Shown: positions 46,208 through 64,000 of the stretch, one piece after another | How the letters are laid out: each line of letters starts with the position of its first letter | How positions within the stretch are numbered: the stretch's first letter is position 1 | Assembly: GCF_008033235.1 (NCBI RefSeq) | Contig: NZ_CP042432.1 | Location: 2,294,001-2,358,000, forward strand | DNA length: 64,000 nt | Source: Anseongella ginsenosidimutans | GTDB lineage: Bacteria; Bacteroidota; Bacteroidia; Sphingobacteriales; Sphingobacteriaceae | Direction: 5' to 3' | Position numbers and translations under genes: made by a program | Notes under the pieces: generated by a model | The model's input: only the letters and a program-made list of their open reading frames with translations | The model's database searches: none | What the model was told of the DNA's origin: nothing

Positions 46208-49200
46208 ATGAGGGATCTTAACTTTCGCTGTTTATTTGCAGTGGTATGTTGCCTGTTCGTGTGTTCCGGTACAGCTTATGCACAAAAAGTGATAAGCGGT
46301 ACGGTAACCGACAGCCTCAGCGGAGCGACGCTGCCCGGCGTTTCGGTAAACGTCCGGGGAACGCTGGAGGGGGTATCTACAGATATAGACGGTAACTTCG
46401 AATTACAAACAGAACAGGAAGAAGTAGTGCTGGTGTTCAGTTACATCGGCTACGCAGAGAAGCAGGTAACCCTGAGCGAAGGGCAGTCGACCGTGAATGT
46501 GCAATTGACTTCTTCCAGCGAATCGTTGGATCAGGTGGTTGTAGTAGGATACGGACAGCAAAAGAAGATTTCGGTAACAGGCGCTGTTAGTTCGGTTCAG
46601 ACCGAAGAACTCCGGCAAAGCTCTTCGGCCACGCTGGCCAGCGCATTGGCCGGACGTTTGCCGGGCCTGACTTCCATCCAGTCGGGAGGAGGACAGCCGG
46701 GACGGGATGATGCTACCATGTACCTTCGCGGTGCGGCTACCACCAACGGGCAAAACCCGCTTATTCTTATTGACGGAGTTCCCCGTGATAATATCCGGAC
46801 CATCGATGCCAGCGAGGTCGCCTCGGTTACAGTTCTGAAGGATGCTTCCGCTACTGCCGTTTTCGGGGTTCGCGGGGCCAATGGGGTAATCCTGATCACT
46901 ACCAAAAGAGGGGAGAAAGGGAAAACCGAATTGAATATCAGCCTGGACCAAAGCTATGCATCCTTCACCCGGGAACCAGAACGCCTGCATTCCCTGGAAT
47001 ATATGGCGCTTAGAAATGAAGCGGCCCTCAATGACGGTATTACCACGCCGCCTTTCAGCGAAGAGGTCATGGCCAAGTACGCCAACCCGCTCCTGGGGCT
47101 GGATCCCAATGACCCCGATTATGAAGAAAAGGCCAGGATCCGGCGCTATATGTATCCTGATCACGACTATTACCGGGAATACATTGACCGTTATACTCCC
47201 CAGACCCGGATCAACGTAAACGCCAGCGGCGGAACGGACAAAGTATCCTTCTTCGTCAATGCCGCCTTTCTTCACCAGGGCGGAAACCTGAACACGGAAC
47301 CGGAATCCGAACTAGGGTACGATCCTTCTTCCTGGATGAACCGCTATAATTTTCGCGCAAACCTGGACTATAATATTACGCCAAGGCTGAAATCATTTTT
47401 GAACTTAGGAAGCTATATCGAACAGGTGAATATGCCGGCTGCCTGGCTGTATGGAGGCGGGGATACCAACTGGATGATGCGCGACCTGCTCTACCAGGCG
47501 CAAACTATTCTTCCCATCACACCAGGCCCGACCACCATTGAAGGCTTTGGGGTGGAGCCGGGTCAGATCGTGGATCCCGGATATATGGACCGTTCAGCCT
47601 TTGAGATCATGAACCGTATGGGGTACCGGAATGAACTCCGTTCCAACCTGAATTCCACGCTGGGTTTGGAATGGGACCTTAGTGGAGCGATTACTCCCGG
47701 CCTGAGTGTAAAGGGGATGATTTCCTATGATTCCAAAGCAACTACCGCCATGCAGGGAGAAAAATCCGAGCGGCTTTACCTGGCACAGGTAAACTATGAG
47801 ACAGATGAACTGAGTTATGCTACTAAACGTTCTGACGAAAGGCTGCTTACATTGGTAAAGGGCGCCGATTCCCGGTATAATATTAACCTGCAGGCGTCTG
47901 CCAATTATGCCCGCACCTTTAATGAAAAGCATGATGTAGGTGGAATGATTCTTTTCCAGCGGGATAATTGGGAAACAACTGCCGGAGAAATACCATTTAA
48001 TGTGGTCGGCATCGCTGCCAGGGCCACTTACGGTTACGATAACCGTTACCTGGCGGAAGTCAATATCGGTTACAACGGATCCGAGCAGTTTGCACCGGAT
48101 AAGCGTTTTGGCTTCTTTCCTGCAGTTTCGGCGGGTTGGGTGATCAGCAATGAAGAGTTTATGGCCGGCAATCCCATTATTACCAGCCTCAAATTAAGGG
48201 CTTCTTACGGAAAGGTGGGGAATGACAAGATGGGGAATGCCCGCTTCCTTTACCAGGATAATATTACCATGGGCGGAGGCCCGCTGGGCAGCCTGAGCAG
48301 GGGCCAGGGTGTGAATCAGGGCCTGTTGGGTAACCCGGCGATCACCTGGGAAGTGGCCGAAAAGCAAAACTATGGTATTGATATGTCACTCTTCCAGGAT
48401 CTTACGATCGCTGTTGATTATTTCGTTGAAAACCGAAGCAAGATCCTGATCAGTCGCAATACTGTTCCTGAATTCCAGGGCGTGCCGCTTGGGAATATCC
48501 CGAAGGTGAACTGGGGAATCGTGGATAATTCAGGTTTCGAAATAGAGTTGAGTTATAATAAAATGCTTAATAAGGACCTGAGCCTCCAGGTGAACGGCAA
48601 TTATGGTTACAACCATAACACGGTTAAGTTCATGGATGAACCTATACGGAATGATGCTTATGCCTACCGTTACCGGAATACCGGCTATTCGCTGGGTCAG
48701 GCCTGGGGATATAAGATTGATTACAGCAACGGAAACGGGTATTTCAATTCGCAGGAAGAACTGGATGCCTACCTGGCCAACACGGAATACGGGTTTGGAA
48801 CGCCGCGGGTCGGGGACTTTATCTACCAGGACCTTACCGGGGACGGGGTTGTGAATGATATGGATATTGCGCCCATTGGTTATTCCAATATTCCAAGGGA
48901 AACCTACGGTTTTGCCCTTTCGCTAGGCTATAAAGCCTTTGATTTCAGCGCTTTTTTCCAGGGAGTGGGTAAATATTCCAGTAATTATGGCGCCCAGGGT
49001 GTGTATGAATACATTATCCAGGGAACCTATTTTGATTACCACAAGAGTGCCTGGACACCGGAACGCTACCAGAACGGCGAAGAGATTACCTATCCCGCCC
49101 TGAGTACCCACAGTACCACCAATCATACGGCCAATGATTTCTTCATAATGAACCGGTCTTACCTGCGGTTGCGAAATATCGAGCTAGCCTATACGGTTTC

Positions 49201-49372
49201 GGCCGATCTGCTGAAAAAGGTGGGTGTCCGGTCCATGAGGATCTATGCCGGAGGCCAGAACCTCTTTACCTGGGACAAGCTGCGGATGGGCCATCTGGAT
49301 CCCGAGAATAACGATCCAATCGGTTACCCGGTGACCAAGATGATGACCTTCGGAATAAATGCTTCCTTTTAA
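46208..49372 (+). CDS. susC: SusC/RagA-type TonB-linked outer-membrane transporter (first pair)
   Basis: A 1054-aa glycan importer barrel. Signal peptide LFAVVCCLFVCSGTAYAQ; carboxypeptidase-D-like domain (residues 25-110, VISGTVTDSLSGATLPGVSV); Ton-box/plug start LDQVVVVGYGQQKKISVTGA; plug motifs ALAGRLPGLTSIQSGGGQPG, LILIDGVPRDNI, VLKDASATAVFGVRGANGVI; then the barrel, ending MMTFGINASF. It passes oligosaccharides bound by its SusD partner, encoded 18 bp downstream. Size and motifs are fully typical. The substrate is unknown. Confidence 0.96.
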   Translation: MRDLNFRCLFAVVCCLFVCSGTAYAQKVISGTVTDSLSGATLPGVSVNVRGTLEGVSTDIDGNFELQTEQEEVVLVFSYIGYAEKQVTLSEGQSTVNVQLTSSSESLDQVVVVGYGQQKKISVTGAVSSVQTEELRQSSSATLASALAGRLPGLTSIQSGGGQPGRDDATMYLRGAATTNGQNPLILIDGVPRDNIRTIDASEVASVTVLKDASATAVFGVRGANGVILITTKRGEKGKTELNISLDQSYASFTREPERLHSLEYMALRNEAALNDGITTPPFSEEVMAKYANPLLGLDPNDPDYEEKARIRRYMYPDHDYYREYIDRYTPQTRINVNASGGTDKVSFFVNAAFLHQGGNLNTEPESELGYDPSSWMNRYNFRANLDYNITPRLKSFLNLGSYIEQVNMPAAWLYGGGDTNWMMRDLLYQAQTILPITPGPTTIEGFGVEPGQIVDPGYMDRSAFEIMNRMGYRNELRSNLNSTLGLEWDLSGAITPGLSVKGMISYDSKATTAMQGEKSERLYLAQVNYETDELSYATKRSDERLLTLVKGADSRYNINLQASANYARTFNEKHDVGGMILFQRDNWETTAGEIPFNVVGIAARATYGYDNRYLAEVNIGYNGSEQFAPDKRFGFFPAVSAGWVISNEEFMAGNPIITSLKLRASYGKVGNDKMGNARFLYQDNITMGGGPLGSLSRGQGVNQGLLGNPAITWEVAEKQNYGIDMSLFQDLTIAVDYFVENRSKILISRNTVPEFQGVPLGNIPKVNWGIVDNSGFEIELSYNKMLNKDLSLQVNGNYGYNHNTVKFMDEPIRNDAYAYRYRNTGYSLGQAWGYKIDYSNGNGYFNSQEELDAYLANTEYGFGTPRVGDFIYQDLTGDGVVNDMDIAPIGYSNIPRETYGFALSLGYKAFDFSAFFQGVGKYSSNYGAQGVYEYIIQGTYFDYHKSAWTPERYQNGEEITYPALSTHSTTNHTANDFFIMNRSYLRLRNIELAYTVSADLLKKVGVRSMRIYAGGQNLFTWDKLRMGHLDPENNDPIGYPVTKMMTFGINASF

Positions 49373-49390: not shown

Positions 49391-51283
49391 ATGAAACTGA
49401 AAATACTTTCACTGCTGTTGATGGCAGCCTGCCTGGCTTCCTGTAATAAGGCGCTGGATATGGCGCCCGACGGCAAACTCAGCATGGACGAAATATTCGC
49501 CGATAACGATAAGGTGGCAGCATTTCTAAACAGCTGTTATACGAATATGCCGGCCAAGGGAACACGCTATTTTTTCTGGAGCCGCGGGCCGGTCGTGTGG
49601 AGCGACGAAGCCTGGGATACCGACGCCGAAGCTGAATCCTGGATTATGGCGGGACGCATGTACAACGGCGATGCTTCTGCCGGGAATCATCCGATCGTCA
49701 ATATCAGCGCGGACGCCGGGAACGGCGACTACTGGGCCCGATACTGGAGCGCTATTCGCAATTGTACCATCTTTATCAACCGGATTGATGATGCAACGGT
49801 TAATAGTGCCGAAGACAAGAATCGCTGGAAAGCGGAAGCGCACCTGCTCAGGGCCTATTATTATTCGGAATTGCTTAAATGGTACGGCTGCGGACTCCCC
49901 ATTATGCGGGAGCCCTTTGATTTAAACGGGGACTTTTCTGGTGTAACGAGAGGCAGTTATTACGAGGTAGTAAAATTCATTATGGAAGATTGCGATGCGG
50001 CCCTTGCTACCGAAGAGCTTCCCTGGAGAATTACGACAGACGCTGAGGCGGGCCGCGTAAACAGGGCTATGGCCGAAGCTATCAAGTCAAAAATGATCCT
50101 CTTTGCCGCCAGCCCATTATATAATGAAGGACAAGACTATTGGCAGGAAGCCTACGAGGTGAATAAAACCTCTCTAGCCAACCTGAGGGCGAATGGTTAT
50201 GCGTTATATAACCAGGTGAATTTTCCCCAGACCTATCTTTCCGACGTGGCTTTTATAGGCCCCGATAAGAATGAAAAAGCGGCTTTGTATAACGAATACT
50301 TTAACCAGAACATGGCCTATTCCGCCAACCCGGTTGACAGGGAAACCATTTATCAAAGCCGGGACGGACAGGGGAATATCTGGAATATAGACGGCATCGG
50401 GGCCCAGGACGGGTATAAATCCGGTACCTGCCCTTCCCAGGAAATAGTGGATGCCTACGAGACCATCAACGGGATGACCGTACTTAACCTGGCGGATCCC
50501 TACCTGGACGAAAAGCACCTGCAGCCGAATTATAATACGGCTAATGCGCTTTATGACCCGAATGATCCTTATGCCAACCGGGATCCGCGTTTTTATGCTT
50601 CCATTTATTATAACGGTTCCAAAAGAAAAGCTTTCTGGAATTTTGCCGAATCCGAAGAATCCTACGAGAATTACCCGGCGCCCATCGGCAACCGGACGCG
50701 GGTAATTGCGACCTATGTGGGTGAGCCGCAGACGGGCTTGCATGAAACCACGCGGAAAGCCACCCGAACGGGCTATTTCCAGCGGAAATTCCTGCATCCC
50801 AATTCAGGAAGCGATAACCCTGTCGGCGGAGCCAACTGGAAGCTATTCCGCCTGGGAGAAGTGATCCTCAATTTTGCGGAAGCCGCTGCCGAAGCGGGCC
50901 ACCTGGATGAAGCGGCTGCTGCTGTGAACGAGATCCGGGCCCGTGTGGGAATGCCCGCTATTCCTCTTTCGCTGACACAGGAAGAACTGATCCTGCGGGT
51001 GCGCCATGAGCGCCGGGTGGAACTGGCTTTTGAGGAGAACCGCTACTTTGATGTACGCAGGTGGTCTTCGCCTGAGGGAGATCTTTCTGAAACCGACAAG
51101 TGGATCACGGCGGCGTTGATTACCCGGAATAGTGATGGCACCTATACATACGACCGCAAAACGGTGAGGGAAGTGGAACGCCGCTGCTATACCAATAAAT
51201 TCCTGAAAGTACCCATCCCCCTGAATGAAGCCAACCGTATTTTAAGTATTACGGGAGAGAACTGGCAAAACCCGGGATGGTAA
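49391..51283 (+). CDS. susD: SusD/RagB-type glycan-binding lipoprotein (first pair)
   Basis: A 630-aa surface lipoprotein (lipobox LASC, then NKALDMAPDGKLSMDEIF). Tetratricopeptide-like helices are visible in WKAEAHLLRAYYYSELLKWY and YYEVVKFIMEDCDAALATEE, and the C-terminal RagB/SusD motifs in RLGEVILNFAEAAAEAGHLD and RHERRVELAFEENRYFDVRR. It caps the SusC barrel and binds the glycan. It is somewhat longer than many SusD proteins. It ends with GENWQNPGW, an ending shared with the second SusD. Confidence 0.95.
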   Translation: MKLKILSLLLMAACLASCNKALDMAPDGKLSMDEIFADNDKVAAFLNSCYTNMPAKGTRYFFWSRGPVVWSDEAWDTDAEAESWIMAGRMYNGDASAGNHPIVNISADAGNGDYWARYWSAIRNCTIFINRIDDATVNSAEDKNRWKAEAHLLRAYYYSELLKWYGCGLPIMREPFDLNGDFSGVTRGSYYEVVKFIMEDCDAALATEELPWRITTDAEAGRVNRAMAEAIKSKMILFAASPLYNEGQDYWQEAYEVNKTSLANLRANGYALYNQVNFPQTYLSDVAFIGPDKNEKAALYNEYFNQNMAYSANPVDRETIYQSRDGQGNIWNIDGIGAQDGYKSGTCPSQEIVDAYETINGMTVLNLADPYLDEKHLQPNYNTANALYDPNDPYANRDPRFYASIYYNGSKRKAFWNFAESEESYENYPAPIGNRTRVIATYVGEPQTGLHETTRKATRTGYFQRKFLHPNSGSDNPVGGANWKLFRLGEVILNFAEAAAEAGHLDEAAAAVNEIRARVGMPAIPLSLTQEELILRVRHERRVELAFEENRYFDVRRWSSPEGDLSETDKWITAALITRNSDGTYTYDRKTVREVERRCYTNKFLKVPIPLNEANRILSITGENWQNPGW

Positions 51284-51307
51284 TAAACAGATTTGAAGGA
51301 AATAACG

Positions 51308-54300
51308 ATGAATCATATGATACCGCATATAGTAATAAAATTCAGGCTGTGCCTTATGGTGGCGCTTCTGTGTCCCGCGGGGAGCCTGCTTGCCCAGGGC
51401 ATGACCGATACCCTGCGGGGTAGGGTCAGCGACGAATGGGGAAACCCGCTGGGGGGAATTCTTGTTCATTCCGAGAACGGGAAGAACGGATCTTCTACTG
51501 ACCTGGAAGGCTTGTTCAGCATTGCCATTAATGACGGGAGCAGTTACCTGGTCTTTTCCGGCGACGGCTACCTGAGTCAACAGGTGCCGCTGGCGCAGGA
51601 AACGGATTTCCAGGTTGAAATGCAAAGGGATGCTCACAGGAAAGATGAGATCGTACACCTGGGATATAGTTCCCAGCGAAGGGAAGCGCTTTCGGGCGCT
51701 GTAGCTACAGTGACCGGAGAAGAACTGGAACGATCCCCGGTAGCTAACCTCAGCCAGGCTTTTGCCGGCCGGCTGCCAGGTTTGTTTACCCAGGAAACCT
51801 TTTCGGAGCTTTCCCGGGCCAATACCGACCTTTTTGTAAGAGGAATTTCGGCGGCCAGGGCTACTGAACCGCTGGTGGTGATCGATGGAATTGTCTGCTC
51901 TTATCAAAGTAATGAAACACTGGAATATATTTCAGCGAATGAAATTGAATCGATTTCCATCCTGAAGGATGCTGCTTCACAGGCGCTGTACGGCATTCAG
52001 GGAGCAAACGGGGTGATTGTGATCACGACCAAGCGCGGACGGAAAGGAAAGCTGCAGATCAATGGCCGGCTTGACCAGTCCATGCAGGAAGTAACCACGC
52101 AACCCACTTTCTATAACTCGGCGGAATATGCGGAAATGCGGAACCAGGCAGCATTGAATGATGGCGAAGCCCTTCTGTTTTCGGCCGAAGATATTGCGCA
52201 TTATCGTAACGGTGATCAACCCGATCTGTTTCCTAACAATAACTGGTATAACCGGTACATAAAGGACTTTGCTTCCATGCAGCGCCTGGGAGTGAACCTG
52301 AACGGCGGCAATGACAAGGTTCAGTTCTTTTCGAACGTCAATTTTATGCACCAGGGAGGGCAGTTCAATACGGAGCAGACCAGTTATGACCCGGCTCCCA
52401 ACAACCTTTGGTTCAATTACCGCTCCAATGTCGATATGAACCTTAATGACTACCTGCGGGCTTTCGTCAGGTTAAGCGGGAATGTAAAAAGAGAACACAC
52501 AGCCGGCGTAGGAAATGCAGATATTTACGGCAGTATTTTCCAGCTGCCTCCTACCATGTACGGCCCGCTTACTCCGGAGGGCCAGGTGGTTACGACCCAG
52601 CTTGTCGGGGCGCCCACCTACGGGATGCTGAACCGGACCGGTTATATTAATCATACGGTCACCAATACCACTTCCCAGTTCGGACTGGACCTGAATATGG
52701 ACTTTCTTACCAAAGGCCTGAACCTGACAGGGATCTTTGCTTATCAGACCAATTCCGTAGGAAGTTTAAGAACGATCCAGAATTACGAGCGCTGGTTGAG
52801 GAATGACGAATCGGAAGAACTTGCATTTATAAAAAAGGGCGATGAACTCAATACGCCCCTTGCTTACACCAAAGGTCATCTCTTTTATTACCGTCTTACT
52901 TACCGGGCTACGCTGGATTACCAGCGGGATTTTGGCAAACACAATATAGGCGGAATGGCCTACATGTTTTACCAGAATCTTACAAAGAGTAATACGAACA
53001 GCCCGGAGCTGCTTCCTTATAACCGGGTAAGTTCCGGAGCCGAGATCAGGTACGGGTACGATAACCGGTATTTCCTGAAAGGCGATATTGGTTATTCCGG
53101 TTCGGAACAGTATGCCAGGAATACCCGCTATACGACTACTCCTGCTGTTTCGGCCGCCTGGGTGATTTCTAACGAGGAATTTATGCAGGAGGCTGCCTGG
53201 CTAAGCCAGCTGAAACTGCGCGCTGCCTGGGGAAAAACGGCGAATGATCAAAGCGGATTGGGACGTTACGCTTACCTGGATAATGTTACGGTGCAGGGCG
53301 GCGGGCCTATCGGCTACTTGCAGTACCTTGTCAATGAGAACCAGATTGGAAACCCGAACATTGCCGCTGAAGTATCCACCAAGCAGAACCTGGGGCTGGA
53401 TATAGGCTTGTTCAATGCCGTATCTCTTTCCGTGGATGTCTTTAAGGAGCGAATGGAGAACATGGTGGTGGACGCCGCCGGCTCCATTCCCCAATACCAG
53501 GGAGTACCCTTACTGAATTACCCTGCCTTGAATGCCGGCGTATTTGAGAACAAAGGCTATGAAATCACGGCTGACTTTGTGAAGCGGCTGAACCGCGACC
53601 TGAGCATTCAGCTTGGAGGTGCGTTTACCTATGCAAAAAATACCGTCATCAGTCGGGGCGAAGCGCTGCGTACCGAAGATTACGCTTACCGGAAATGGGA
53701 GGAAGGATATTCTTTCGGGCAGCAGTTTGGTTACCTGGTGGATTACAGCAACGGGAACGGCTTCTTTAATTCAGCGGAAGAACTGGCAAACAGCGGCCTT
53801 ACGTATGACTTCGGTGATCCACGTGTGGGAGACCTGATTTACCAGGACCTGAACCAGGACGGCAGCATTGACGAGCGGGATAAGGCGCCTGTTGGTCACG
53901 GCGCTGTTCCCCGCATTGTCTACGGGTTTTCCGGGGGGCTTACTTACCGCGCTTTTGATTTGAACTTCCTGTTCCAGGGGCTTGGCCAGTATGAGACCAT
54001 GCTGGGCGGAACCGGCATCTGGGAAACGGCTTTCGATGGCGTTTTCGGCGCTCTGCATCGGAACGCCTGGACCGCCGAACGCTATGCAAACGGAGAAGCG
54101 ATCAGCTGGCCGGCGCTTTCCCTGGAGAAGACGGTGAATCATGAAATGAGCGATTTTGTGAATTACGATCGTTCCTACCTTCGCCTGAAGAATCTTGAAC
54201 TGGGCTATACATTACCGATGCAAACCGCAAAAGCGATATCGGCGGAAAAGATCAGGTTTGTCCTGAGCGGGCAGAACCTGCTTACCTGGGATAATATGAA

Positions 54301-54388
54301 GTCGGATGATTTCGGGCCGGAGGGCGCCGGATACACCTCTTTCCCGGTGTACAGGGTATATAGTCTGGGTGTTAACGTAATATTCTAA
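51308..54388 (+). CDS. susC: SusC/RagA-type TonB-linked outer-membrane transporter (second pair)
   Basis: A 1026-aa barrel paralogous to the first SusC. The ATG at 51308 follows GAAGGA by 7 bp and gives a signal peptide (FRLCLMVALLCPAGSLLAQ); a TTG at 51293 is rejected. The usual VVVGYG is replaced by DEIVHLGYSSQRREALSGAV, so the Ton-box region is divergent. The plug retains SQAFAGRLPGLFTQ, LFVRGISAARATEPLVVIDG and ILKDAASQALYGIQGANGVI. The pair follows susD1 by only 24 bp, so the four genes are probably one operon. Confidence 0.95.
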   Translation: MNHMIPHIVIKFRLCLMVALLCPAGSLLAQGMTDTLRGRVSDEWGNPLGGILVHSENGKNGSSTDLEGLFSIAINDGSSYLVFSGDGYLSQQVPLAQETDFQVEMQRDAHRKDEIVHLGYSSQRREALSGAVATVTGEELERSPVANLSQAFAGRLPGLFTQETFSELSRANTDLFVRGISAARATEPLVVIDGIVCSYQSNETLEYISANEIESISILKDAASQALYGIQGANGVIVITTKRGRKGKLQINGRLDQSMQEVTTQPTFYNSAEYAEMRNQAALNDGEALLFSAEDIAHYRNGDQPDLFPNNNWYNRYIKDFASMQRLGVNLNGGNDKVQFFSNVNFMHQGGQFNTEQTSYDPAPNNLWFNYRSNVDMNLNDYLRAFVRLSGNVKREHTAGVGNADIYGSIFQLPPTMYGPLTPEGQVVTTQLVGAPTYGMLNRTGYINHTVTNTTSQFGLDLNMDFLTKGLNLTGIFAYQTNSVGSLRTIQNYERWLRNDESEELAFIKKGDELNTPLAYTKGHLFYYRLTYRATLDYQRDFGKHNIGGMAYMFYQNLTKSNTNSPELLPYNRVSSGAEIRYGYDNRYFLKGDIGYSGSEQYARNTRYTTTPAVSAAWVISNEEFMQEAAWLSQLKLRAAWGKTANDQSGLGRYAYLDNVTVQGGGPIGYLQYLVNENQIGNPNIAAEVSTKQNLGLDIGLFNAVSLSVDVFKERMENMVVDAAGSIPQYQGVPLLNYPALNAGVFENKGYEITADFVKRLNRDLSIQLGGAFTYAKNTVISRGEALRTEDYAYRKWEEGYSFGQQFGYLVDYSNGNGFFNSAEELANSGLTYDFGDPRVGDLIYQDLNQDGSIDERDKAPVGHGAVPRIVYGFSGGLTYRAFDLNFLFQGLGQYETMLGGTGIWETAFDGVFGALHRNAWTAERYANGEAISWPALSLEKTVNHEMSDFVNYDRSYLRLKNLELGYTLPMQTAKAISAEKIRFVLSGQNLLTWDNMKSDDFGPEGAGYTSFPVYRVYSLGVNVIF

Positions 54389-54392: not shown

Positions 54393-56162
54393 ATGAAGCG
54401 ATTTAAAATACTTTTGATGTCCCTCGTTACATTGGCGATGCTTTTTTCCTGTAACGAGCAGCTGGACCTGCCAACAGACGGACGCATTACCATGGACCAG
54501 GTTTTCAGCGATTATAACAGGACCAGGGGCTACCTTAACTCCTGTTACGGACACCTTCCCGCTCCTTATATGGACCGGGCTTCCTTTACGGACGAAGCCC
54601 AGGATGTCGATGATATTAATCCAGGTTCCAAGTTCAGCAACTGGTACAACGGAAATGTCACTGCCGTTAACTACCCGGCCAACTCAGCGGATGGCAGCCC
54701 CTGGGGACAGCTTTTCGAGGGTATCCGCAAATGCAATGTATTCCTTGAAAACATCCAGACCGCTACTGTCCGCGCTTCGGAGGAAGAAAAAGCGGGCTGG
54801 GTAGCCCAAGCGCGCACCCTGAGGGCGCTGTATTACCTTCAGCTGATCAAACGCTACGGCGGAGTGCCCATTTTTGACAAGCCGCTGGGAACCGATCACG
54901 ATTTCTCGCAGGATCGCCGGGCTTCCTTTTCCGAAGTAGTGCAGTTTATCCTGGCCGATTGTGACGCCGCGCTTGCGGTCCCGAATACCCGCGAAGGTTT
55001 TCATTGGGAAATTTATGATAATCAATACGGTATTATGACACGGGCGGTGGCTTATGCAATAAAGTCACAGGCGGTTACCTATGCGGCCAGCCCGCTGTGG
55101 TCGGACGGCACCTTTACCTGGGAAGACGCAACCCGTATCAATGCGGAAGCGCTGTCGCAATGCCTTGCCAATGATTACCAGCTGTTTGACGAAACGCCTT
55201 CGCCGGACATTGCCCAAAACGCTTATGCGCTTTACTTTTTTACCTCCTCCAATGATCAGCGCGCCTCGGATAAGGAAACGATCTACCAGGCGGGCACCCA
55301 GATGGCGGTATGGAGAGATGCGGGCCTACCCAGCAATGAAGGCATGGTCAGCGCCGGCCCCAATCCTACGCAGGACCTGGTGGATAGCTATGAAATGGCA
55401 AACGGGGAAGCTCCCATTACGGGTTATACAGATGGGAACCGGCTGGAGCCCATAATTAACCCGGCTTCCGGATACGATCCGGAAAATCCCTACATGGGCC
55501 GCGATCCGCGCTTCTATGCGTCTGTTTATTATAACGGGGCGGTAAGGTTCCTGGACCAGCCCGACGGGAAAAAAGTGGAAACTTTTGTGGGCGGTGCGGA
55601 AGGCATTTCGGCCCAGGATTTTCAGCATACCCGTACCGGCTATTACCTGAGGAAGTTCAATAATTTCCGTTCTGGTGTAAATAACCAGGCCGACGGCGCC
55701 ATCCGGTTATTTCGCCTGGCGGAATTGTACCTCAATTTTGCTGAATCGGCTTACCAGTCGGCAGGGCCTGACGTACCGGTTACGGCAGGTGATTTCTCTA
55801 TGAGCGCAAGAGAGGCCGTAAGTGCGGTACGGGCACGGGCGGGTATGCCGCCTTTCCCGGCCGGCATGTCAAAAGAAGATTTTGAAATAAAATACCGGAA
55901 CGAGCGGCGGGTGGAGCTGGCTTTTGAGGAACACCGGTTCTTTGACGTTCGCCGGTGGAAGATTCTTAGCGAAACAGGTCAATTCGTGACCGGCATGCGT
56001 ATTACGCAAAATGGCGGCGCATTGGATTACGAGCGCTTTAAATTTGATAACCGCGGCAGTTCAGCGGATAAATTCCTGATGTACCCTATTGACCAGGCGG
56101 AAGTAAACAAAATTGTCGGGCTCACAGGTGAGAACTGGCAGAACCCGGGCTGGCTGGATTAA
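54393..56162 (+). CDS. susD: SusD/RagB-type glycan-binding lipoprotein (second pair)
   Basis: A 589-aa lipoprotein (lipobox LFSC, then NEQLDLPTDGRITMDQVF) that starts 4 bp after susC2. SusD motifs: GWVAQARTLRALYYLQLIKR, SEVVQFILADCDAALAVPN, YRNERRVELAFEEHRFFDVR and the ending GENWQNPGWLD. It should pair with the second SusC. The stop codon lies within a 15-bp tandem duplication. It is clearly related to the first SusD but shorter. Confidence 0.95.
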   Translation: MKRFKILLMSLVTLAMLFSCNEQLDLPTDGRITMDQVFSDYNRTRGYLNSCYGHLPAPYMDRASFTDEAQDVDDINPGSKFSNWYNGNVTAVNYPANSADGSPWGQLFEGIRKCNVFLENIQTATVRASEEEKAGWVAQARTLRALYYLQLIKRYGGVPIFDKPLGTDHDFSQDRRASFSEVVQFILADCDAALAVPNTREGFHWEIYDNQYGIMTRAVAYAIKSQAVTYAASPLWSDGTFTWEDATRINAEALSQCLANDYQLFDETPSPDIAQNAYALYFFTSSNDQRASDKETIYQAGTQMAVWRDAGLPSNEGMVSAGPNPTQDLVDSYEMANGEAPITGYTDGNRLEPIINPASGYDPENPYMGRDPRFYASVYYNGAVRFLDQPDGKKVETFVGGAEGISAQDFQHTRTGYYLRKFNNFRSGVNNQADGAIRLFRLAELYLNFAESAYQSAGPDVPVTAGDFSMSAREAVSAVRARAGMPPFPAGMSKEDFEIKYRNERRVELAFEEHRFFDVRRWKILSETGQFVTGMRITQNGGALDYERFKFDNRGSSADKFLMYPIDQAEVNKIVGLTGENWQNPGWLD

Positions 56163-56248: not shown

Positions 56249-57976
56249 ATGATACGAGCAGGTATAGCTACATTTTTTTCAACCGCATTACTCCTGGCGG
56301 CCGGCGCGCTGAGCGCTCAGCCACTCTCCGGGGTGGACGGACTAGGCCGGGTCTTGCCGGGATATGAAGAGGTGGGCGGCCCTAAAGAAGGGAAGCATGT
56401 GGCCATGTTTTATTTTCTGTGGCATGGCGACGGTACTTCTCCGCATAGATGGGACCTTCATAAGATCATTAACAGCCACCCCGAGGTGCTGAATGATTTC
56501 GACAACCCCCACTGGGGCGGGGGTGGCATGTATTACTGGGCAGAACCAATCTACGGCTACTACCGGGCGGATGATTACTGGGTGCATTTGAGAAGCATGC
56601 AGCTGCTCAGCGATGCCGGGGTGGATATGGTAGTGATCGACGCGACCAACCGGCTTACCTATCCAAAACAAGCTGATGCGCTGATGAAAGCGATGGACGC
56701 ATTACGTGCCCAGGGCAGGAAACCGCCGAAGATCGTGTTCTATACCAATACGGCTTCGGGCGAGACCATGCAGGAAGTGTATGATAATTTTTATAAGGAA
56801 GGCGCGCCCTACCGGCATCCCGAATGCTGGTTCTACCTGGAAGGGAAGCCGCTTGTCATCGGCCATTCAAAGGAAGCCGAAGGAACGGACTATAGGAAAT
56901 TCTTTACCATCCGGGAGTCGCAATGGCCGAACGAGCCGCAAAAAGTGAACGGCTGGCCATGGATATCCTTTACAAGGCCTCAAAAGGTACATTATAACCA
57001 TAAGGGGGAAGCGGAGATCATCAACGTTTCCGTGGCTCAGCATCCCAATCCCACAGCGGGGATGGGAGGCGCGGCTTTTTACGGGAATACCGATAACTGG
57101 GGCAGGAGTTACCGCGACGGCTCTCCCGGCAACCCCGTGGCGGATATCATCCACGGGTATAATTTCCAGGAACAATGGGACTTTGCCCTGAAGCAGGATG
57201 TGCCCTTTATTTATGTGACCGGCTGGAATGAATGGGTAGCCGGAAAGTTCGCCAGTCATGACGATAACCCCGAACATTCCTGGTTCTGCGACCAGGCCAG
57301 CCCCGAGTATAGCAGGGACATTGAGCCTACCCGCACCGCGGGGATCCAGGACCACTACTACATGCAGCTGGTGAGTAATATCCGGAAATATAAAGGAGTC
57401 GCTGCCAACCCGCCTCTGGGTAAGCCGCTGGCAATCCGCCGGATGGATGACTGGAAGAAAGTGAAGGTGCTTTACCGCGATTATACGGGGGATACCCGGG
57501 AACGCAATCATCCTGGCGCCCAGTCAGAGCCTCCGACTGTGTATACAAATAAGACCGGCCGCAACGATTTTGACTTGCTTAAAGTGGCCAGGGATGAAGA
57601 AAATGTGTATTTCTATGCCCAAACGGTTGATCCGCTGAGCCCGTCGGAAGGCAGCAACTGGATGCGGTTGTACCTGGATGCAGATAATGATCCCGCAACC
57701 GGCTGGAATGGCTATGACTTCAGGATAAACGGCGGAAATAGCCTGGAGCAATACTCCGGTGGAACCTGGAAAGAAACCGCAAAAACAACTTACCTGGCGG
57801 AGGGTGACCAGCTCATGATCACCGTGCCCAGAAAACTGATCCCCGCTTTTGCCGGCGAATTGAATTTCGAATTCAAGTGGTCGGACAATATGCAGGATGA
57901 CAAGGATCCGCTGGACTGGTACATAAACGGTGACGCCGCTCCCGGGGGCCGTTTTAATTTCATGGTTAATGAATAA
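56249..57976 (+). CDS. GH99/GH71-like exported protein with C-terminal CBM9-like domain (copy 1)
   Basis: A 575-aa exported protein. Signal peptide FFSTALLLAAGALSAQ. Residues about 45-400 look like a TIM barrel related to the GH71/GH99/WbsX group: HVAMFYFLWHGDGTS, GYYRADDYWVHLRSMQLLSD, AGVDMVVIDATN, and FIYVTGWNEWVAGKF with the WNEW motif. Residues about 440-575 resemble a CBM9/DOMON-type module (YLDADNDPATGWNGYDFRIN, NFEFKWSDNMQ). The catalytic residues and substrate are not assigned; GH99 enzymes act on alpha-mannans, but that cannot be transferred safely. It overlaps the DUF5722 gene by 8 bp. Confidence 0.72.
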   Translation: MIRAGIATFFSTALLLAAGALSAQPLSGVDGLGRVLPGYEEVGGPKEGKHVAMFYFLWHGDGTSPHRWDLHKIINSHPEVLNDFDNPHWGGGGMYYWAEPIYGYYRADDYWVHLRSMQLLSDAGVDMVVIDATNRLTYPKQADALMKAMDALRAQGRKPPKIVFYTNTASGETMQEVYDNFYKEGAPYRHPECWFYLEGKPLVIGHSKEAEGTDYRKFFTIRESQWPNEPQKVNGWPWISFTRPQKVHYNHKGEAEIINVSVAQHPNPTAGMGGAAFYGNTDNWGRSYRDGSPGNPVADIIHGYNFQEQWDFALKQDVPFIYVTGWNEWVAGKFASHDDNPEHSWFCDQASPEYSRDIEPTRTAGIQDHYYMQLVSNIRKYKGVAANPPLGKPLAIRRMDDWKKVKVLYRDYTGDTRERNHPGAQSEPPTVYTNKTGRNDFDLLKVARDEENVYFYAQTVDPLSPSEGSNWMRLYLDADNDPATGWNGYDFRINGGNSLEQYSGGTWKETAKTTYLAEGDQLMITVPRKLIPAFAGELNFEFKWSDNMQDDKDPLDWYINGDAAPGGRFNFMVNE

Positions 57977-60221
57977 TAGCCTTTTCCGCTGCGTGGCAGC
58001 CATTACTTTGCTTTTTGAAGCGTTATTTTTATTCCCCGGACAGGCGCTTGCGCAGGACGGTTATTTGCAGCTTTCTGCTGAAAATGCCAACGATATCGAA
58101 CTTTCGGAAGCAGGGGCGGGCGCCTGCCGGGTGGAAGCAACCGGAGGCGATCCCTATTTGTTTACCGCGCCTCTTTCAGCTCCGCTCGAAAAAGGCCGCA
58201 GCGTACTTACTTTCGAATATTTCTCTGCCGGTTACCTGGACAAGTTTCAGGTGTTTTTTGGCCCACCAATTTCTGAAAATAACAGCCTTAGCGGCGAACT
58301 CGGCGTACGGGAAGGCTGGACGAGTTACTCACTGGACCTCAGCCGTGTATTGAATGACTGGGGAAAGAAAGGCGATTTTCTAAGGCTGGATCTTGGAAGC
58401 ACGCCAGGTTACCAGCTGCAGATCCGGAATATCCATTTCAGGAAACCGAATGCGGAGGAACAAGCCCGTGCGGCCAATTACGAAAAAAATAAGCGCCGGC
58501 AAGCTGTGCAAAAGGTGGCGCTGAAGAAATACCTTTACAATGATTATCCGCTGGAACTCACCCGGGTTTCGGTAAAGACGGACTCGATAATTATAGAAGG
58601 CACGTTGTTCAAGACCGGAGGCAAGCTTTTTCTGGCCGAAGTGCCGTTACATGAAGATATTGCCTGGGAGGCTTCCTTCGAATATCTTTTTGATATCCCC
58701 GCTGAATTTCAGTTTGACATTCCTGCCGGGAAATCGAAGGTTTTCGCAGGAACGCCGGAAAGCACGGCGGAGCATTCCGGCGTTAAGAGAAATGCCTCAG
58801 CACCTGTGGCAAAAACTGGCATGACGGCGGGTAAAACCGGGTTCCGGATGGCAATTCCGCGTTACCGGCTTGCAGACGATCACCAGGCTGATCGTCTGCT
58901 ATCCAAATGGGTCATTGTTGAGAAGGAGGGCAAGGACGTCCGGCTATTATCTCATGCGCGATATGCGGATCATATCGAATCGCTATACGACCTGCCTGAA
59001 AAACACCTGGCGGGTAAGAAGGGCATAGGCGGCTTTCATGCCGGTAAATATACCAGCGACCTCGATTCCCTGGGCATTACCAGTGTCACGGTGAACATGT
59101 GGATATCGAAAATGCTGCGTTCTCAGCCCTCAGACAATACCATTTCCTTTGAATACGGCGGAAAAACTTACTATGCCGACAAAAACTGGGTGGAACGCCA
59201 TGACCGTACCCTGCAGGAGACGGCCAAACGGGACATACTGGTTTCGTCCATTGTCCTGATCGATAAAGCGGTAAATACCCCTGATAAGACAATCGGGGCT
59301 ATTATGGAGCATCCGGACTGCGATCCTGCGGGTATTTACAGCATGGCGAATATGACTTCGGCTGAAGGAGTGGAATATTACGCGGCGGCCATGGACTTCC
59401 TGGCAAAGCGTTACAGCCGCCCGGATAAACAATTTGGGCGGATCCACCACTGGATCGTTCATAATGAAGTGGACGCCGGCTGGGTATGGACGAATATGGG
59501 AGAGGCTGATACATTGCTTTTCATGGATACCTATCATAAATCCATGCGCCTGGTGCAGAATATAGCCCGGCAATACAACCCTCATTCAAAAGCTTTTATT
59601 ACGCTTACTCATTACTGGAACTGGACCCTGGATAAACATTTCTACCTTTCCAAAGACCTGCTGGAAATACTGCTGGAATATTCTTCGCTGGAAGGAGATT
59701 TTGACTGGGGAATTGCTCATCATCCTTACCCGGAATCGCTTTTCGAGCCTAAAAGCTGGGAAGACGAAAAAGTGGATTACACCTTTGATACCCCGCTGAT
59801 CACGTTCAAAAACATTGAGGTGCTTGACGCCTGGGTAAAGCAGCCTTTCACCATGTACCTGGGAAAGCATAAACGGACAGTTTTTCTTTCCGAGCAAGGT
59901 CCTAATTCCAGGGACTATAGCGCAAAGAGTTTAGCCGAACAGGCCGCAAGTATGGCTTACGTCTGGAAAAAGATGGAAGTACTGGATGGCATTGAGGCTT
60001 TTCAGTTTCATAACTGGATGGATAACAGGGGAGAAGGAGGGCTGCGTATCGGGCTGCGGCGGTTCCCGGATGATGAAGAGGATCCGGCAGGCAAAAAGCC
60101 GGTTTGGTATGTGTTCCGTGACCTTGGCACGCCGGCGCAGGAAAAAGCCATTGAATTTGCGAAGGACGTTATTGGGATTGATGATTGGGAAGAGGTTCGG
60201 TATCGGAAGGCTGTTGAATGA
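57969..60221 (+). CDS. exported DUF5722 protein, TIM-barrel glycosidase-like
   Basis: A 750-aa exported protein. The ATG at 57969 gives a signal peptide (VAAITLLFEALFLFPGQALA); the upstream frame start at 57930 lies inside the preceding gene. Residues 25-170 resemble a carbohydrate-binding beta-sandwich. The rest matches DUF5722: IGGFHAGKYTSDLDSLGITS, ILVSSIVLIDKAVNTP, MEHPDCDPAGIYSMANMTSA, FGRIHHWIVHNEVDAGWVWT with a likely acid/base Asn-Glu pair, and TVFLSEQGPNSRDYS with a candidate nucleophile Glu. This layout suggests a retaining clan-A-type hydrolase (inference). Two GH99-like paralogues flank it. Confidence 0.78.
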   Translation: MNNSLFRCVAAITLLFEALFLFPGQALAQDGYLQLSAENANDIELSEAGAGACRVEATGGDPYLFTAPLSAPLEKGRSVLTFEYFSAGYLDKFQVFFGPPISENNSLSGELGVREGWTSYSLDLSRVLNDWGKKGDFLRLDLGSTPGYQLQIRNIHFRKPNAEEQARAANYEKNKRRQAVQKVALKKYLYNDYPLELTRVSVKTDSIIIEGTLFKTGGKLFLAEVPLHEDIAWEASFEYLFDIPAEFQFDIPAGKSKVFAGTPESTAEHSGVKRNASAPVAKTGMTAGKTGFRMAIPRYRLADDHQADRLLSKWVIVEKEGKDVRLLSHARYADHIESLYDLPEKHLAGKKGIGGFHAGKYTSDLDSLGITSVTVNMWISKMLRSQPSDNTISFEYGGKTYYADKNWVERHDRTLQETAKRDILVSSIVLIDKAVNTPDKTIGAIMEHPDCDPAGIYSMANMTSAEGVEYYAAAMDFLAKRYSRPDKQFGRIHHWIVHNEVDAGWVWTNMGEADTLLFMDTYHKSMRLVQNIARQYNPHSKAFITLTHYWNWTLDKHFYLSKDLLEILLEYSSLEGDFDWGIAHHPYPESLFEPKSWEDEKVDYTFDTPLITFKNIEVLDAWVKQPFTMYLGKHKRTVFLSEQGPNSRDYSAKSLAEQAASMAYVWKKMEVLDGIEAFQFHNWMDNRGEGGLRIGLRRFPDDEEDPAGKKPVWYVFRDLGTPAQEKAIEFAKDVIGIDDWEEVRYRKAVE

Positions 60222-60535
60222 AGTTTATAGTTTTAGTTTTTAGTTTAAGGTTTAAAGTTCAAGGTTCAAAGAGTTTATAGTTTTTAGTTCAAGGTTTAAA
60301 GTTAAAGGTTCAAAAAGTTTATAGTTTTTAGTTCAAGGTTTAAAGTTCAAGGTTTAAAGAGTTTATAGTTATAGTTTAAGGTTTAAAGAGTTTATAGTTA
60401 TAGTTTAAGGTTTAAAGAGTTTATAGTTTTTAGAGTTCAAAGTTTTTCAAGGTTCAAAGAGTTTATAGTTTATCGTTTTTTGGAGCTTAAGATTCGACGT
60501 TTAAGGTTTAAAGGGTTTTTAGTTTTTAGTTTTTG
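60222..60535 (+). repeat. AT-rich tandem repeat block made of GTTTATAG / TTCAAGG / TTTAAAG words
   Basis: Begins directly after the DUF5722 stop. Variations on GAGTTTATAGTTTTTAG, TTCAAGG and TTTAAAG recur throughout. The cleanest part is two perfect 29-bp units at 60359-60387 and 60388-60416, with a third starting at 60417. Almost no C occurs on the plus strand except in TTCAAGG. It contains no open frame, no palindromic CRISPR-type repeat and no unique spacers. From 60536 to the next start the sequence remains C-poor and I see no gene. Confidence 0.92.
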
Positions 60536-60582
60536 GGGGAGAGGGTTGTGTTGGGTGGAAATCAGAATGTAGAAATTAGAAT

Positions 60583-60593: not shown

Positions 60594-62450
60594 GTGAAAA
60601 TAGTTGATGGAAGAATTGTTAGTGCTGGCCGGGGCGCGAGAATGTTTGCTGCTGTTGGGGTGGTTTTTTTGTTGTTGACGGTGTTTTCTGGTGATTTGTG
60701 GGCGCAGCGGGACGGGGCGAATTATGGGAACGGGTTGCCGGCTACGGATGCTTTGGGGCGGGAACTTCCGGATGTGGAAGAGGTTGGGCCGGCGCGCAAG
60801 GATAAGTTTATTGGCTTGTTTTACTGGACCTGGCATACCCGGCTGTCTGAAAACAGCGATGCGCCTTACAATGTGTCTGAAATACTTGCTAAAAAGCCGG
60901 AGGCGATCAACGATTATAATGATCCAATCTGGCCTTCGCCGAAACAGGCAGGCTCCTTTTTCTGGGATGAGCCGCTGTTTGGCTATTACCTGGATACCGA
61001 TCGATGGGTGCTTTACAAGCATGCCGAAATGCTGGCTGCGGCTGGCGTGGACATGATCATGTTTGATTGTACCAATGGTGATCTTACCTGGCCGGAATCC
61101 TATGAGGCGCTCTGCGAAGTGTTCACGGAAGCTCGTAAAAACGGAATTAAAACGCCGAAGATCGCGTTTATGCTGGCTTTCGGCCCTTCCGAAGGCAGTC
61201 TGCAGGCCATGAAGGATATTTACACGAATCTTTATCAGCCGGAACGTTACAAAGATCTGTGGTTTTACTGGAAGGGCAAGCCCCTGATCATGGCCTATCC
61301 GGAAACGCTGACGGATGTTCCGGGAGACGAGAAGGAAACAGGGCTTCGCCGGGAGATGCGTAACTTCTTTACTTTCCGCCCGGGTCAACCCGTATACAAT
61401 AAAGGTCCGCAACGCCCGGATCACTGGGGATGGCTGGAGATAAGCCCGCAGCACGGCTTTGTGAAAAAGCCGGACGGCAGCTTTGAACAGGTAACGGTAG
61501 GGGTTTCCCAAAACTGGTCGGCGGAAAGAGGCCTAACCGCCATGAATGCACCCGGATCTTTCGGAAGAAGCTATACGAACGCCAACGGACATTCTGATAA
61601 ACCGGAGGCCGTAAATTATGGCCTGAATTTCCAGGAACAATGGGAACGGGCGCTGGAAATTGATCCTGAGCTTGTTTTTATCACTGGCTGGAACGAATGG
61701 ATCGCCGGCCGTTACGAGGAATGGCAGCAGCAGCATAATGCATTCCCCGATCAGTACAACCAGGAACATAGCCGGGATATAGAACCGATGAAGGGCGGTC
61801 ACGGAGACAATTACTACTATCAGATGGTTGCGAATATCCGCCGCTTTAAGGGAATGCCGCCGGAGCCGGAAGTTTCTCCTTCCCTTAAGGTTTCCGTAGA
61901 CGGTAAGTTTGACGAATGGCAGCAGGTAACGCCAGGGTTCAAGGCCCATACAGGCAACACGCTGCACCGGGATAGCCCCGGATGGAAAGGGAAGCATTAT
62001 ACGAACACTACTGGCCGGAACGATATTGTTCTGACGAAAGTAGCCCGCGATAAACGAAATATCTATTTTTATGTAGAAACCGCCGATGATCTGAGCCCTG
62101 CCGGCCAGCCCGGCTGGATGCGCCTGTTCATCGATACGGACCGCGATAAGAAAACCGGCTGGGAAGGCTACGACTATGTAGTGAACCGGGTAAGCCCGGG
62201 CAAAAAGGCCGTAGTGGAGAAGAGCAAAGAAGGCTGGAATTGGGAAAAGGCCGGCGAGATCAGTTATGCGGTCAAAGGCAGGCAGCTGGAGATCGCCATC
62301 CCCAGGTCTTTACTCGGCCAGCGCGGGCATGTTGACCTGGAATTCAAATGGTCGGATAATATGCAGGAAGAGGGAAATATTACCGATTTTCTCCTGAACG
62401 GCGACGTAGCGCCCATGGGCCGCTTTAACTATCATTACCACGCAGACTGA
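60594..62450 (+). CDS. GH99/GH71-like exported protein with C-terminal CBM9-like domain (copy 2)
   Basis: A 618-aa paralogue of the protein at 56.2-58.0 kb with the same architecture. GTG start at 60594, or ATG at 60642, which would begin the signal peptide (FAAVGVVFLLLTVFSGDLWA). TIM-barrel landmarks: FIGLFYWTWHTRLSEN, EPLFGYYLDTDRWVLYKHAE, AGVDMIMFDCTN, VFITGWNEWIAGRYEEW. The C-terminal module has FIDTDRDKKTGWEGYDYVVN and EFKWSDNMQ and ends GRFNYHYHAD. The first 60-70 codons use TTG, GTT and GGG far more than the rest of the gene and its paralogue. The last codons lie in an 18-bp repeat array. Confidence 0.72.
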   Translation: MKIVDGRIVSAGRGARMFAAVGVVFLLLTVFSGDLWAQRDGANYGNGLPATDALGRELPDVEEVGPARKDKFIGLFYWTWHTRLSENSDAPYNVSEILAKKPEAINDYNDPIWPSPKQAGSFFWDEPLFGYYLDTDRWVLYKHAEMLAAAGVDMIMFDCTNGDLTWPESYEALCEVFTEARKNGIKTPKIAFMLAFGPSEGSLQAMKDIYTNLYQPERYKDLWFYWKGKPLIMAYPETLTDVPGDEKETGLRREMRNFFTFRPGQPVYNKGPQRPDHWGWLEISPQHGFVKKPDGSFEQVTVGVSQNWSAERGLTAMNAPGSFGRSYTNANGHSDKPEAVNYGLNFQEQWERALEIDPELVFITGWNEWIAGRYEEWQQQHNAFPDQYNQEHSRDIEPMKGGHGDNYYYQMVANIRRFKGMPPEPEVSPSLKVSVDGKFDEWQQVTPGFKAHTGNTLHRDSPGWKGKHYTNTTGRNDIVLTKVARDKRNIYFYVETADDLSPAGQPGWMRLFIDTDRDKKTGWEGYDYVVNRVSPGKKAVVEKSKEGWNWEKAGEISYAVKGRQLEIAIPRSLLGQRGHVDLEFKWSDNMQEEGNITDFLLNGDVAPMGRFNYHYHAD

Positions 62451-62562
62451 AAGGTCGCGAAGACAGAACTATCGCGCGGACCGGACTGTCTCGCGCAGAC
62501 CGGACTGTCGCGCAGGCTGGAAGGTCTCGCGCAGACTGAACTGTCCGGGAGAGCGAACTGTC
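62438..62562 (+). repeat. seven degenerate 17-19-bp repeats crossing the gene's stop codon
   Basis: Units approximate TCGCGCAGACCGGACTGTC. The first (from 62438) contains the last three codons and TGA stop of the second GH99-like gene, and the array ends GAACTGTC at 62562. The remaining 62563-62683 has no gene that I can see and no clear promoter. Confidence 0.8.
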
Positions 62563-62683: not shown

Positions 62684-64000
62684 ATGATAAAAAGAATGAT
62701 CATTATTGCTCTTGTGTGGGGTTCCCTGCTTTCTTATGATGTCCTTGCTCAGCTTCCTCCTGTGTTTGGAGAAAAGTATGAAGAGCTGACCCAGGATGAT
62801 CCGAGGGTCAGGAAATATATCAGCCCGCTGCGTATCGTATGGCAGTCGGATGAAAGCGGAAAAACCATTGAAAATGCCGCCAAATTGCTGAAACCGGGAA
62901 ACGGGCAGGCGGAACTCATTAATAATGATCTCTGTATTCTCAGGAGTACGGATACGGAAAAGCCGGGCATTCTCCTGGATTTTGGAAAAGAGCTTCACGG
63001 AGGGCTGCAGCTGGTTACCGGCATGATGGCCAGCAAGGACCCGGTAAAAGTACGTATCCGTTTCGGTGAGTCGGTGAGCGAGGCGATGTCGGATATCGAC
63101 ACGATTAACGGAGCTACCAATGACCATGCCATGCGGGACTTTATCGTGGAACTTCCCTGGCTGGGTTCCCTGCAGGTAGGGAATTCCGGGTTTCGCTTCG
63201 TGAGGATAGACCTGGTGGACCCGAATGTGGAATTACTGCTGAAAGAGGCAAGGGCGGTTTTTATTTATCGTGATGTTCCCTACCTGGGCTCATTTAAGAG
63301 CAATGACGAGCGGCTGAACCAGATATGGGAAACGGGGGCTTACACCGTGCATCTGAACATGCAGCAATATCTCTGGGACGGTATCAAGCGCGACCGCCTG
63401 GTATGGGTAGGAGACCTGCATCCCGAGGTAATGACGGTGAATGCCGTTTTTGGCTATAATGAAGTGGTGCCGAAAAGCCTGGACCTGATCCGGGACGCCA
63501 CTCCTTTGCCGCAATGGATGAACGGGATCAGCTCTTATTCCCTCTGGTGGATTATCATTCACCGCGACTGGTACAATTACCACGGTGACCTGGAATACCT
63601 GAAAGAACAGGAAGAATACCTCAAGGGACTGCTGTCCCTGTTGCTGACCAAAATTGACGGCAACAAGGAAGCGCTGGACGGCATGCGCTTCCTGGACTGG
63701 CCTTCCAGCGAAAATGAGAAGGCTATTCACGCCGGTTTGCAGGCGCTCATGGTAATGGCCCTGGATGCGGGCGCTGAGCTGAGCCAGGTGTTGGGAGAGA
63801 ATACGACCGCCGGGCAATGTGAAGACGCGGTGGCCCGTTTGCGGAAACACGTACCGGATCACGGCGATTCGAAGCAGGCTGCTGCCATGCTTACCCTGGC
63901 GGGAATGATGGATGGTAAAAAAGCGAACAAGCAAGTGATCGCCGTAGGCGGTGCGGAGAATTTTTCCACCTTCTATGGATATTATATGCTTCACGCAAAA
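62684..64000 (+). CDS. alpha-L-rhamnosidase-like (GH78 type) protein, 3' end outside window
   Basis: An open frame of 439 codons running off the right edge. Signal peptide MIIIALVWGSLLSYDVLAQ; an N-terminal beta-domain (LLDFGKELHGGLQLVTG, VRIRFGESVSEAM); then the six-hairpin catalytic region, starting LGSFKSNDERLNQIWETGAY and NMQQYLWDGIKRDRLVWVGD, with SSYSLWWIIIHRDWYNYHGD. The WDG-IKRDR-WVGD pattern is typical of GH78-like and related alpha/alpha-barrel hydrolases, with D/E residues there being candidate catalytic acids. It suggests that the locus handles a rhamnose-containing glycan, but not all relatives are rhamnosidases. Confidence 0.75.
   Translation, partial: MIKRMIIIALVWGSLLSYDVLAQLPPVFGEKYEELTQDDPRVRKYISPLRIVWQSDESGKTIENAAKLLKPGNGQAELINNDLCILRSTDTEKPGILLDFGKELHGGLQLVTGMMASKDPVKVRIRFGESVSEAMSDIDTINGATNDHAMRDFIVELPWLGSLQVGNSGFRFVRIDLVDPNVELLLKEARAVFIYRDVPYLGSFKSNDERLNQIWETGAYTVHLNMQQYLWDGIKRDRLVWVGDLHPEVMTVNAVFGYNEVVPKSLDLIRDATPLPQWMNGISSYSLWWIIIHRDWYNYHGDLEYLKEQEEYLKGLLSLLLTKIDGNKEALDGMRFLDWPSSENEKAIHAGLQALMVMALDAGAELSQVLGENTTAGQCEDAVARLRKHVPDHGDSKQAAAMLTLAGMMDGKKANKQVIAVGGAENFSTFYGYYMLHAK

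Follow-up and report, generated by a model that had tools for sequence, protein, structure and literature searches.

Which glycan is degraded by a locus in which two SusC/SusD pairs are joined to enzymes of families that have no assigned function? The question is raised by a gene cluster at the right-hand end of the window, the 64,000-nucleotide stretch of DNA analysed here (positions 2,294,001-2,358,000 of a contig of 4.32 Mb). In the original prediction, made from the sequence alone, the cluster was described as a glycan utilisation locus for an undescribed, possibly rhamnose- and mannose-containing glycan, with two receptors for different fragments. Taken as a whole, the locus is best explained as a PUL for a rhamnose-rich glycan, a reading to which a probability of roughly 0.7 is assigned.

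Gene content and borders of the locus

The locus spans positions 46208-64447, and all of its genes lie on the plus strand. It begins with SusC1 (46208..49372), a TonB-dependent importer of 1054 amino acids that matches TIGR04056 with 864 bits and, in Pfam, Plug and CarbopepD_reg_2 only. SusC1 is followed by SusD1 (49391..51283), a surface glycan-binding lipoprotein of 630 amino acids (PF07980, 2e-51) whose orthologues, at 60-86% identity, are adjoined by the same genes. The second importer, SusC2 (51293..54388; TIGR04056, 719 bits), and SusD2 (54393..56162; 589 amino acids; PF07980, 3.6e-46) come next. The enzyme genes comprise GH99-like A (56249..57976), a protein of 575 amino acids with the motif NEWVA and a signal peptide recognised by eye; a DUF5722 protein of approx. 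750 amino acids (57969..60221; PF18989, 415.6 bits), whose open reading frame was listed from a GTG at 57930 and whose likelier start is the ATG at 57969; and GH99-like B (60594..62450), a protein of 618 amino acids that is 36% identical to GH99-like A and consists of a GH99-fold catalytic domain and a C-terminal beta-rich domain. The last gene (62678..64447) encodes a short GH78-type alpha-L-rhamnosidase of 589 amino acids, in which the Bac_rhamnosid6H domain (PF17389) scores 74.7 bits vs a cut-off of 24.5 and PF17390 scores 31.6 bits; the protein also matches the putative alpha-rhamnosidase 3cih (2e-47). The genes are tightly packed, with two exceptions: DUF5722 is followed by a 372-bp repeat spacer, whose AT-rich tandem repeats occupy 60222..60560 and which is the fusion point in the closest relative (see below), and a gap of approx. 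230 bp lies ahead of GH78. All of the genes listed originally are present in the positions given.

When the window was extended to the right, as the original prediction had proposed, the GH78 gene was found to end 447 bp beyond the window edge. Next come a convergent gene for a YhcG-type nuclease and then the housekeeping genes RibF, TruB, UppP, FtsX, and LeuS; because these are unrelated to the locus, the latter stops at 64447. Tandem SusC/SusD pairs with co-directional carbohydrate-active genes, in an order kept in relatives, constitute an ordinary PUL architecture, here carrying two enzyme families without assigned function.

Conservation of the locus as a unit

The DUF5722 alignment was scanned against 84,980 species genomes, which yielded 347 relatives, and 80 loci were kept. 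With 88% over the DUF5722 domain, the closest relative proved to be a MAG that bears the label Anseongella ginsenosidimutans (Sphingobacteriaceae). Its block from SusC1 to GH78 is likewise flanked by a UvrA-like gene to the left and RibF/TruB to the right and is 70-87% identical gene by gene, and its DUF5722 and GH99-like B genes are fused into one. The order SusC1-SusD1-SusC2-SusD2-GH99A-DUF5722-GH99B is shared by Lunatibacter and Cyclobacterium; Dyadobacter has it with a single additional gene, and looser versions are found in Parapedobacter and several Bacteroidales. DUF5722 is fused to a GH99-like domain in 11 of these 80 loci, one of them from an Acidobacteriota genome.

DUF5722 is rare: 2 genomes out of 395 sampled across the phylum have it, as do 6 out of 151 in the family, one of which gives a weak match. 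Among the 151 family genomes, SusD1 orthologues of at least 60% identity are present in seven and GH99-like B of at least 53% in nine; all seven genomes with such a SusD1 also contain GH99-like B (7/7; naive P 1e-10, n=151), and five of them contain DUF5722. The order that recurs in Bacteroidota, the 7/7 co-occurrence of SusD1 and GH99-like B, and the fusions in 11 loci show that the locus is a real unit, as expected of the coherent glycan utilisation locus originally proposed. Moreover, since two genomes (G437 and G479) possess two SusCD pairs and two GH99-like genes without DUF5722, the core consists of the two SusCD pairs and the GH99-like pair, and DUF5722 is an optional member present in a subset.

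The original prediction also counted a divergent beta-helix protein in the locus. The gene is indeed present (43878-46058); its product carries a GH141 insertion domain (GH141_M, 41.6 vs a cut-off of 27 bits) and matches BT_1002 in the PDB (5mqp, 9e-51). Its membership, however, is not upheld: at the corresponding position in the Anseongella MAG the gene is absent and another SusCD locus is found instead, and in other relatives its best matches do not adjoin the SusC1-to-GH78 locus. The GH141-like gene was therefore rejected as a component and is regarded as a neighbour.

Receptors and regulation

Identity is 39% between the two SusC proteins and likewise between the two SusD proteins. The second SusC had been said to lack the usual VVVGYG segment, and this is correct: SusC2 has DEIVHLGYSSQ in its place. 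In every SusC2 orthologue examined the segment is likewise replaced, usually by (I/V)(Q/H)LGY(S/T). Because the orthologues share the loss, decay of SusC2 was rejected as its cause, and the replacement is considered a property of the receptor. Given that the two pairs are 39% identical and stay side by side in relatives, it is plausible that they serve as receptors for different fragments.

As originally noted, no hybrid two-component or ECF/anti-sigma regulator lies next to the locus in the window. In particular, a Pfam search of the window revealed no HTCS, FecR, or STN domain adjoining it, and SusC1 carries no STN domain. The one ECF sigma gene (40125-40709) is located beyond the intervening UvrA-like gene, beside a sodium:sulfate symporter. 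A local HTCS or ECF/anti-sigma regulator is common in PULs but not essential. Among the relatives, Dyadobacter combines an ECF sigma factor and a FecR anti-sigma factor with a SusC1 that bears an STN domain, and in one genome (G543) a hybrid two-component regulator is encoded upstream in place of ECF/FecR; in Lunatibacter and two further genomes (G545 and G542), the upstream open reading frames and SusC1 are suspected, from size only, to represent the ECF/FecR/STN arrangement. The window locus has no such regulators and is therefore controlled from elsewhere or by unrecognised means. Promoter and terminator scans returned hits at chance level only.

GH99-like proteins

GH99-like A has no match in Pfam, and GH99-like B scores 21.1 bits against PF16317, vs a cut-off of 33. 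A profile of 41 GH99-like members finds GH99 structures in the PDB (E 8e-9), and the AlphaFold model of GH99-like B (pLDDT 90.6) matches 28 GH99 entries with Z of 18.4-19.5, GH71 being next at approx. 15. In GH99, the catalytic glutamates sit in the motif NEWHEG. All 41 GH99-like members carry NE[WYF]xA, which means that the first GH99 glutamate is kept and the second is alanine; in GH99-like B, these positions correspond to E368 and A371, respectively. A DxTN motif, placed where one of the early barrel strands ends, is also invariant (41/41) and includes D158 of GH99-like B; this residue is a candidate replacement acid. The scaffold is thus of the GH99 type, but the proteins should not be called GH99, because two defining features of the family, a score above the cut-off and the two catalytic glutamates (NE-x-x-E), are missing. 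Another GH99-like gene, adjoining GH78 and a SusCD pair, is found near 278 kb in the same genome.

The GH99-like proteins might constitute a new hydrolase family that uses another acid, with D158 as the candidate, and cleaves rhamnosyl instead of mannosyl bonds, and DUF5722 might accompany them as a new clan GH-A family. This proposal is tentative, the odds being somewhat against it; if it were true, the gene set would open a rhamnose-rich polysaccharide for which enzymes are undescribed. No enzyme of clan GH-A or with the GH99 fold is known to us to act on alpha-L-rhamnosides, which counts against the preferred rhamnose-rich reading.

DUF5722

The AlphaFold model of DUF5722 (pLDDT 89) shows a TIM barrel preceded by N-terminal beta domains. 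The best match of the barrel is a Bacteroides GH39 enzyme (Z 25.8, 3.3 Å, 310 residues, 15% identity); PslG and GH1 are close behind, GH1 and others lie within 1-3 Z of GH39, and GH10 is also among the best matches. Searches of PDB sequences with DUF5722 alone or with a 52-row profile returned nothing meaningful. According to DSSP of the model, an Asn-Glu pair follows strand 4 and a glutamate is positioned on strand 7, which is the pattern of a retaining clan GH-A hydrolase. Both glutamates are invariant in 52 of 52 sequences (N488/E489/E631 in alignment numbering), and the candidate catalytic residues in the window protein are E513 and E655, numbered on the open reading frame from 57930 (codons 59466-59468 and 59892-59894). 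DUF5722 is thus predicted to be a clan GH-A hydrolase. As retaining enzymes of this clan usually cut equatorial bonds, DUF5722 probably cuts a bond other than an alpha-L-rhamnosyl one.

The link to rhamnose

A GH78 or GH106 gene is located within 10 kb of 24 of 38 Bacteroidota DUF5722 loci vs 2 of 40 control SusD loci drawn from eight DUF5722-bearing genomes (Fisher 2.7e-8; the P values are too small, because some of the loci tested had contributed to the HMMs and the loci are not phylogenetically independent). With a looser threshold, a rhamnosidase is found near 3 of the 40 controls. GH99-like genes lie within 10 kb of 28/38 DUF5722 loci and 0/40 controls. Moreover, when GH99-like loci of the family were chosen regardless of DUF5722, 13 of 17 had GH78 or GH106 nearby, as counted by hand from gene tables over stretches of approx. 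20 kb.

The most telling individual example is G479, in which RhaT-RhaD-RhaI-RhaB, with RhaD an aldolase-dehydrogenase, directly precedes SusC1-SusD1-SusC2-SusD2-GH99B-GH99A on one strand. A rhamnose operon also adjoins DUF5722 in Algibacter, Leeuwenhoekiella, Ulvibacterium, and one further genome (G103), and several Flavobacteriia have both a rhamnose operon and several sulfatases next to the DUF5722 gene. In the genome under study, homologues of RhaB, RhaI, and RhaD are encoded near 682-687 kb. Taken alone, RhaB/RhaI/RhaD are not significantly enriched near DUF5722 (8/38 vs 3/40, P 0.11); it is the enrichment of rhamnosidases that carries the weight. Within the window locus, GH78 is the sole rhamnose-specific gene, and the other support for rhamnose comes from relatives. 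The rhamnose part of the original prediction has therefore gained support: the substrate very probably contains rhamnose, and a rhamnose-rich substrate is the leading hypothesis for the two enzyme families.

Candidate substrates

A narrower version of the rhamnose-rich reading holds that ulvan or green-algal rhamnan sulfate was the original substrate, as reflected in the marine relatives, and that the soil form of the locus acts on an unsulfated relative. Sulfatases occur near 14/38 DUF5722 loci vs 4/40 controls, and the marine Algibacter, Ulvibacterium, Echinicola, and Arenibacter have several sulfatases together with, variously, a rhamnose operon, GH78, and GH106. Other isolates of Algibacter and Echinicola degrade ulvan (PMC9182395), which also speaks for this version. 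The window locus, however, contains no sulfatase, and single-query BLAST searches detected neither GH88/GH105 adjoining DUF5722 (with one GH88 query) nor an ulvan-lyase-type (BNR_4) relative in DUF5722 loci. This narrower version is rather doubtful.

A rhamnose-capped plant glycan or glycoside, such as pectin side chains, arabinogalactan-protein caps, or plant saponins, is unlikely. The genus name, taken from the nearest MAG, does refer to ginsenoside conversion, and a GH88-like gene with a LacI regulator lies approx. 11 kb rightward in the same genome. In three relatives (G426, G518, and G531), GH106, short GH78, and GH99-like genes are followed by a gene for a BNR_4 protein, a Pfam family that we take to cover ulvan and Rha-GlcA lyases. 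On the other hand, no GH28, PL1, PL9, or PL11 is among the families listed for the neighbourhoods, in lists of 25 families at most, and the marine and lake relatives suggest non-plant glycans.

A mannan or rhamno-mannan locus, with the GH99-like proteins as endo-alpha-mannanases as in known GH99 loci, is highly improbable: GH99 is the closest solved fold and GH92 and GH130-like genes occur near some relatives, but the missed Pfam cut-off and the catalytic glutamate lost in 41/41 members leave the predicted mannose unsupported, the window locus contains no GH92 or GH76, and the relatives' neighbours are mostly rhamnosidases.

Proposed mechanism and significance

According to the preferred reading, a PUL for a rhamnose-rich glycan, the two SusC/SusD importers would act as a pair of pairs that capture fragments at the cell surface and transport them to the periplasm. 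In that compartment, the two paralogous GH99-fold enzymes may cut internal axial (alpha) bonds, and DUF5722 would attack an equatorial bond as a retaining hydrolase of the clan GH-A type. The short GH78 would release alpha-L-rhamnose, which would enter the RhaB/RhaI/RhaD pathway, whose genes lie at another place in the genome. The gene content, its conservation as one block, the predicted folds, the invariant residues, and the link to rhamnose come from the computations, whereas the bonds cut, the periplasmic site (signal peptides recognised by eye), the order of action, and the exact glycan are inferred.

Rhamnose-rich polysaccharides occur in algae and in bacterial exopolymers, and, to our knowledge, few enzymes are known for the internal cleavage of rhamnose-rich chains. 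The locus would therefore mark bacteria able to use such polysaccharides. For two enzyme families whose substrates were hitherto unassigned, there is now one that can be put to the test, and the absence of the customary second catalytic residue from a family with the GH99 fold raises a direct mechanistic question. The suggestion that the system is undescribed is consistent with a literature search that had most subscription journals outside its scope: it returned no publication on DUF5722, no paper calling such a PUL 'GH99-like', and no characterised equivalent in the literature on GH99-like or rhamnan PULs. The endo-rhamnosidase literature found in the same way deals mainly with phage tailspikes and includes no PUL of this kind.

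Comparison with known systems

The GH99-like proteins share with GH99 (BtGH99 4acy, BxGH99 4ad1) a TIM barrel, which aligns over 260-280 residues with a Z of approx. 19, and the first catalytic glutamate within its NEW motif. They differ in the invariant alanine at the second NEWHEG glutamate, the additional invariant DxTN motif, the extra C-terminal domain, an identity of only 14-18%, and a Pfam score under the cut-off. Similarly, DUF5722 resembles the enzymes of clan GH-A, of which GH39 (5jvk from Bacteroides cellulosilyticus; PslG, 4zn2) is nearest, in its TIM barrel, strand-4 Asn-Glu, and strand-7 glutamate, but identity is 10-15%, PDB sequence matches are lacking, DUF5722 has extra N-terminal beta domains, and several clan GH-A families are close in Z to GH39. 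The rhamnosidase has the 6-hairpin barrel, the C-terminal domain, and the DGIKRDR-VW-GD motif of GH78 (3cih), although at 589 amino acids it is short and does not carry the N-terminal modules of long GH78 proteins. At the level of the whole locus, the ulvan PULs of Formosa and the RG-II PULs of B. thetaiotaomicron likewise combine SusC/D pairs with GH78/GH106 and the release of rhamnose. In contrast to these systems, with their ulvan lyase or RG-II signature enzymes, the window locus contains neither and is built on GH99-like proteins and DUF5722.

Repeats in the locus, a gene fusion in the closest relative and a neighbouring beta-helix gene

The DUF5722 gene and GH99-like B are separated by an AT-rich array of GTTTAAAGTTCAAGG-like units (window 60222-60560) with periods of 14, 29 and 44, the 15-mer of which has no further occurrence elsewhere in the window. 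At the site of this array, the closest relative, a MAG also labelled Anseongella ginsenosidimutans, carries DUF5722 and GH99-like B as a single fused frame. The interval that leads from GH99-like B to the GH78 gene holds a GC-rich 36-bp tandem repeat in three copies (62441-62545). A GH141-like beta-helix protein (43878-46058) is encoded divergently from SusC1; the closest relative has no such gene in the syntenic position.

Rhamnose-related genes in this and other genomes

Elsewhere in the same genome, rhamnulose-phosphate aldolase/dehydrogenase is encoded in two overlapping frames (10053-13246 of the extracted stretch L130; ~685.0-688.2 kb of the window's contig, G000:C1), and the adjacent membrane protein, which occupies the RhaT position, is likewise divided into two ORFs. 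In the Anseongella MAG, the aldolase/dehydrogenase is one frame. The split may represent real fission, decay or a sequencing error.

A further SusCD locus of this genome (L203, ~270-290 kb of G000:C1) contains a GH78 gene (945 aa) adjoining a more distantly related GH99-like gene (34%). Approximately 8.5 kb to the right of the end of the window locus's own GH78 gene, a LacI-type regulator is followed by a GH88-like gene (L002, 11983-14243); these apparently form a separate carbohydrate cluster.

In another Bacteroidota genome, an 80-kb region (G103:C1 2838000-2918000, L015-L018) combines four DUF5722 genes and many sulfatases with GH78, GH106, GH43 and a rhamnose operon, and is probably a cluster for a sulfated rhamnose glycan. 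A cassette of GH106, short GH78, GH99-like, BNR_4 protein and DUF2264 recurs in the stretches L205, L207 (4009-13486) and L208, hinting at Rha-GlcA linkages.
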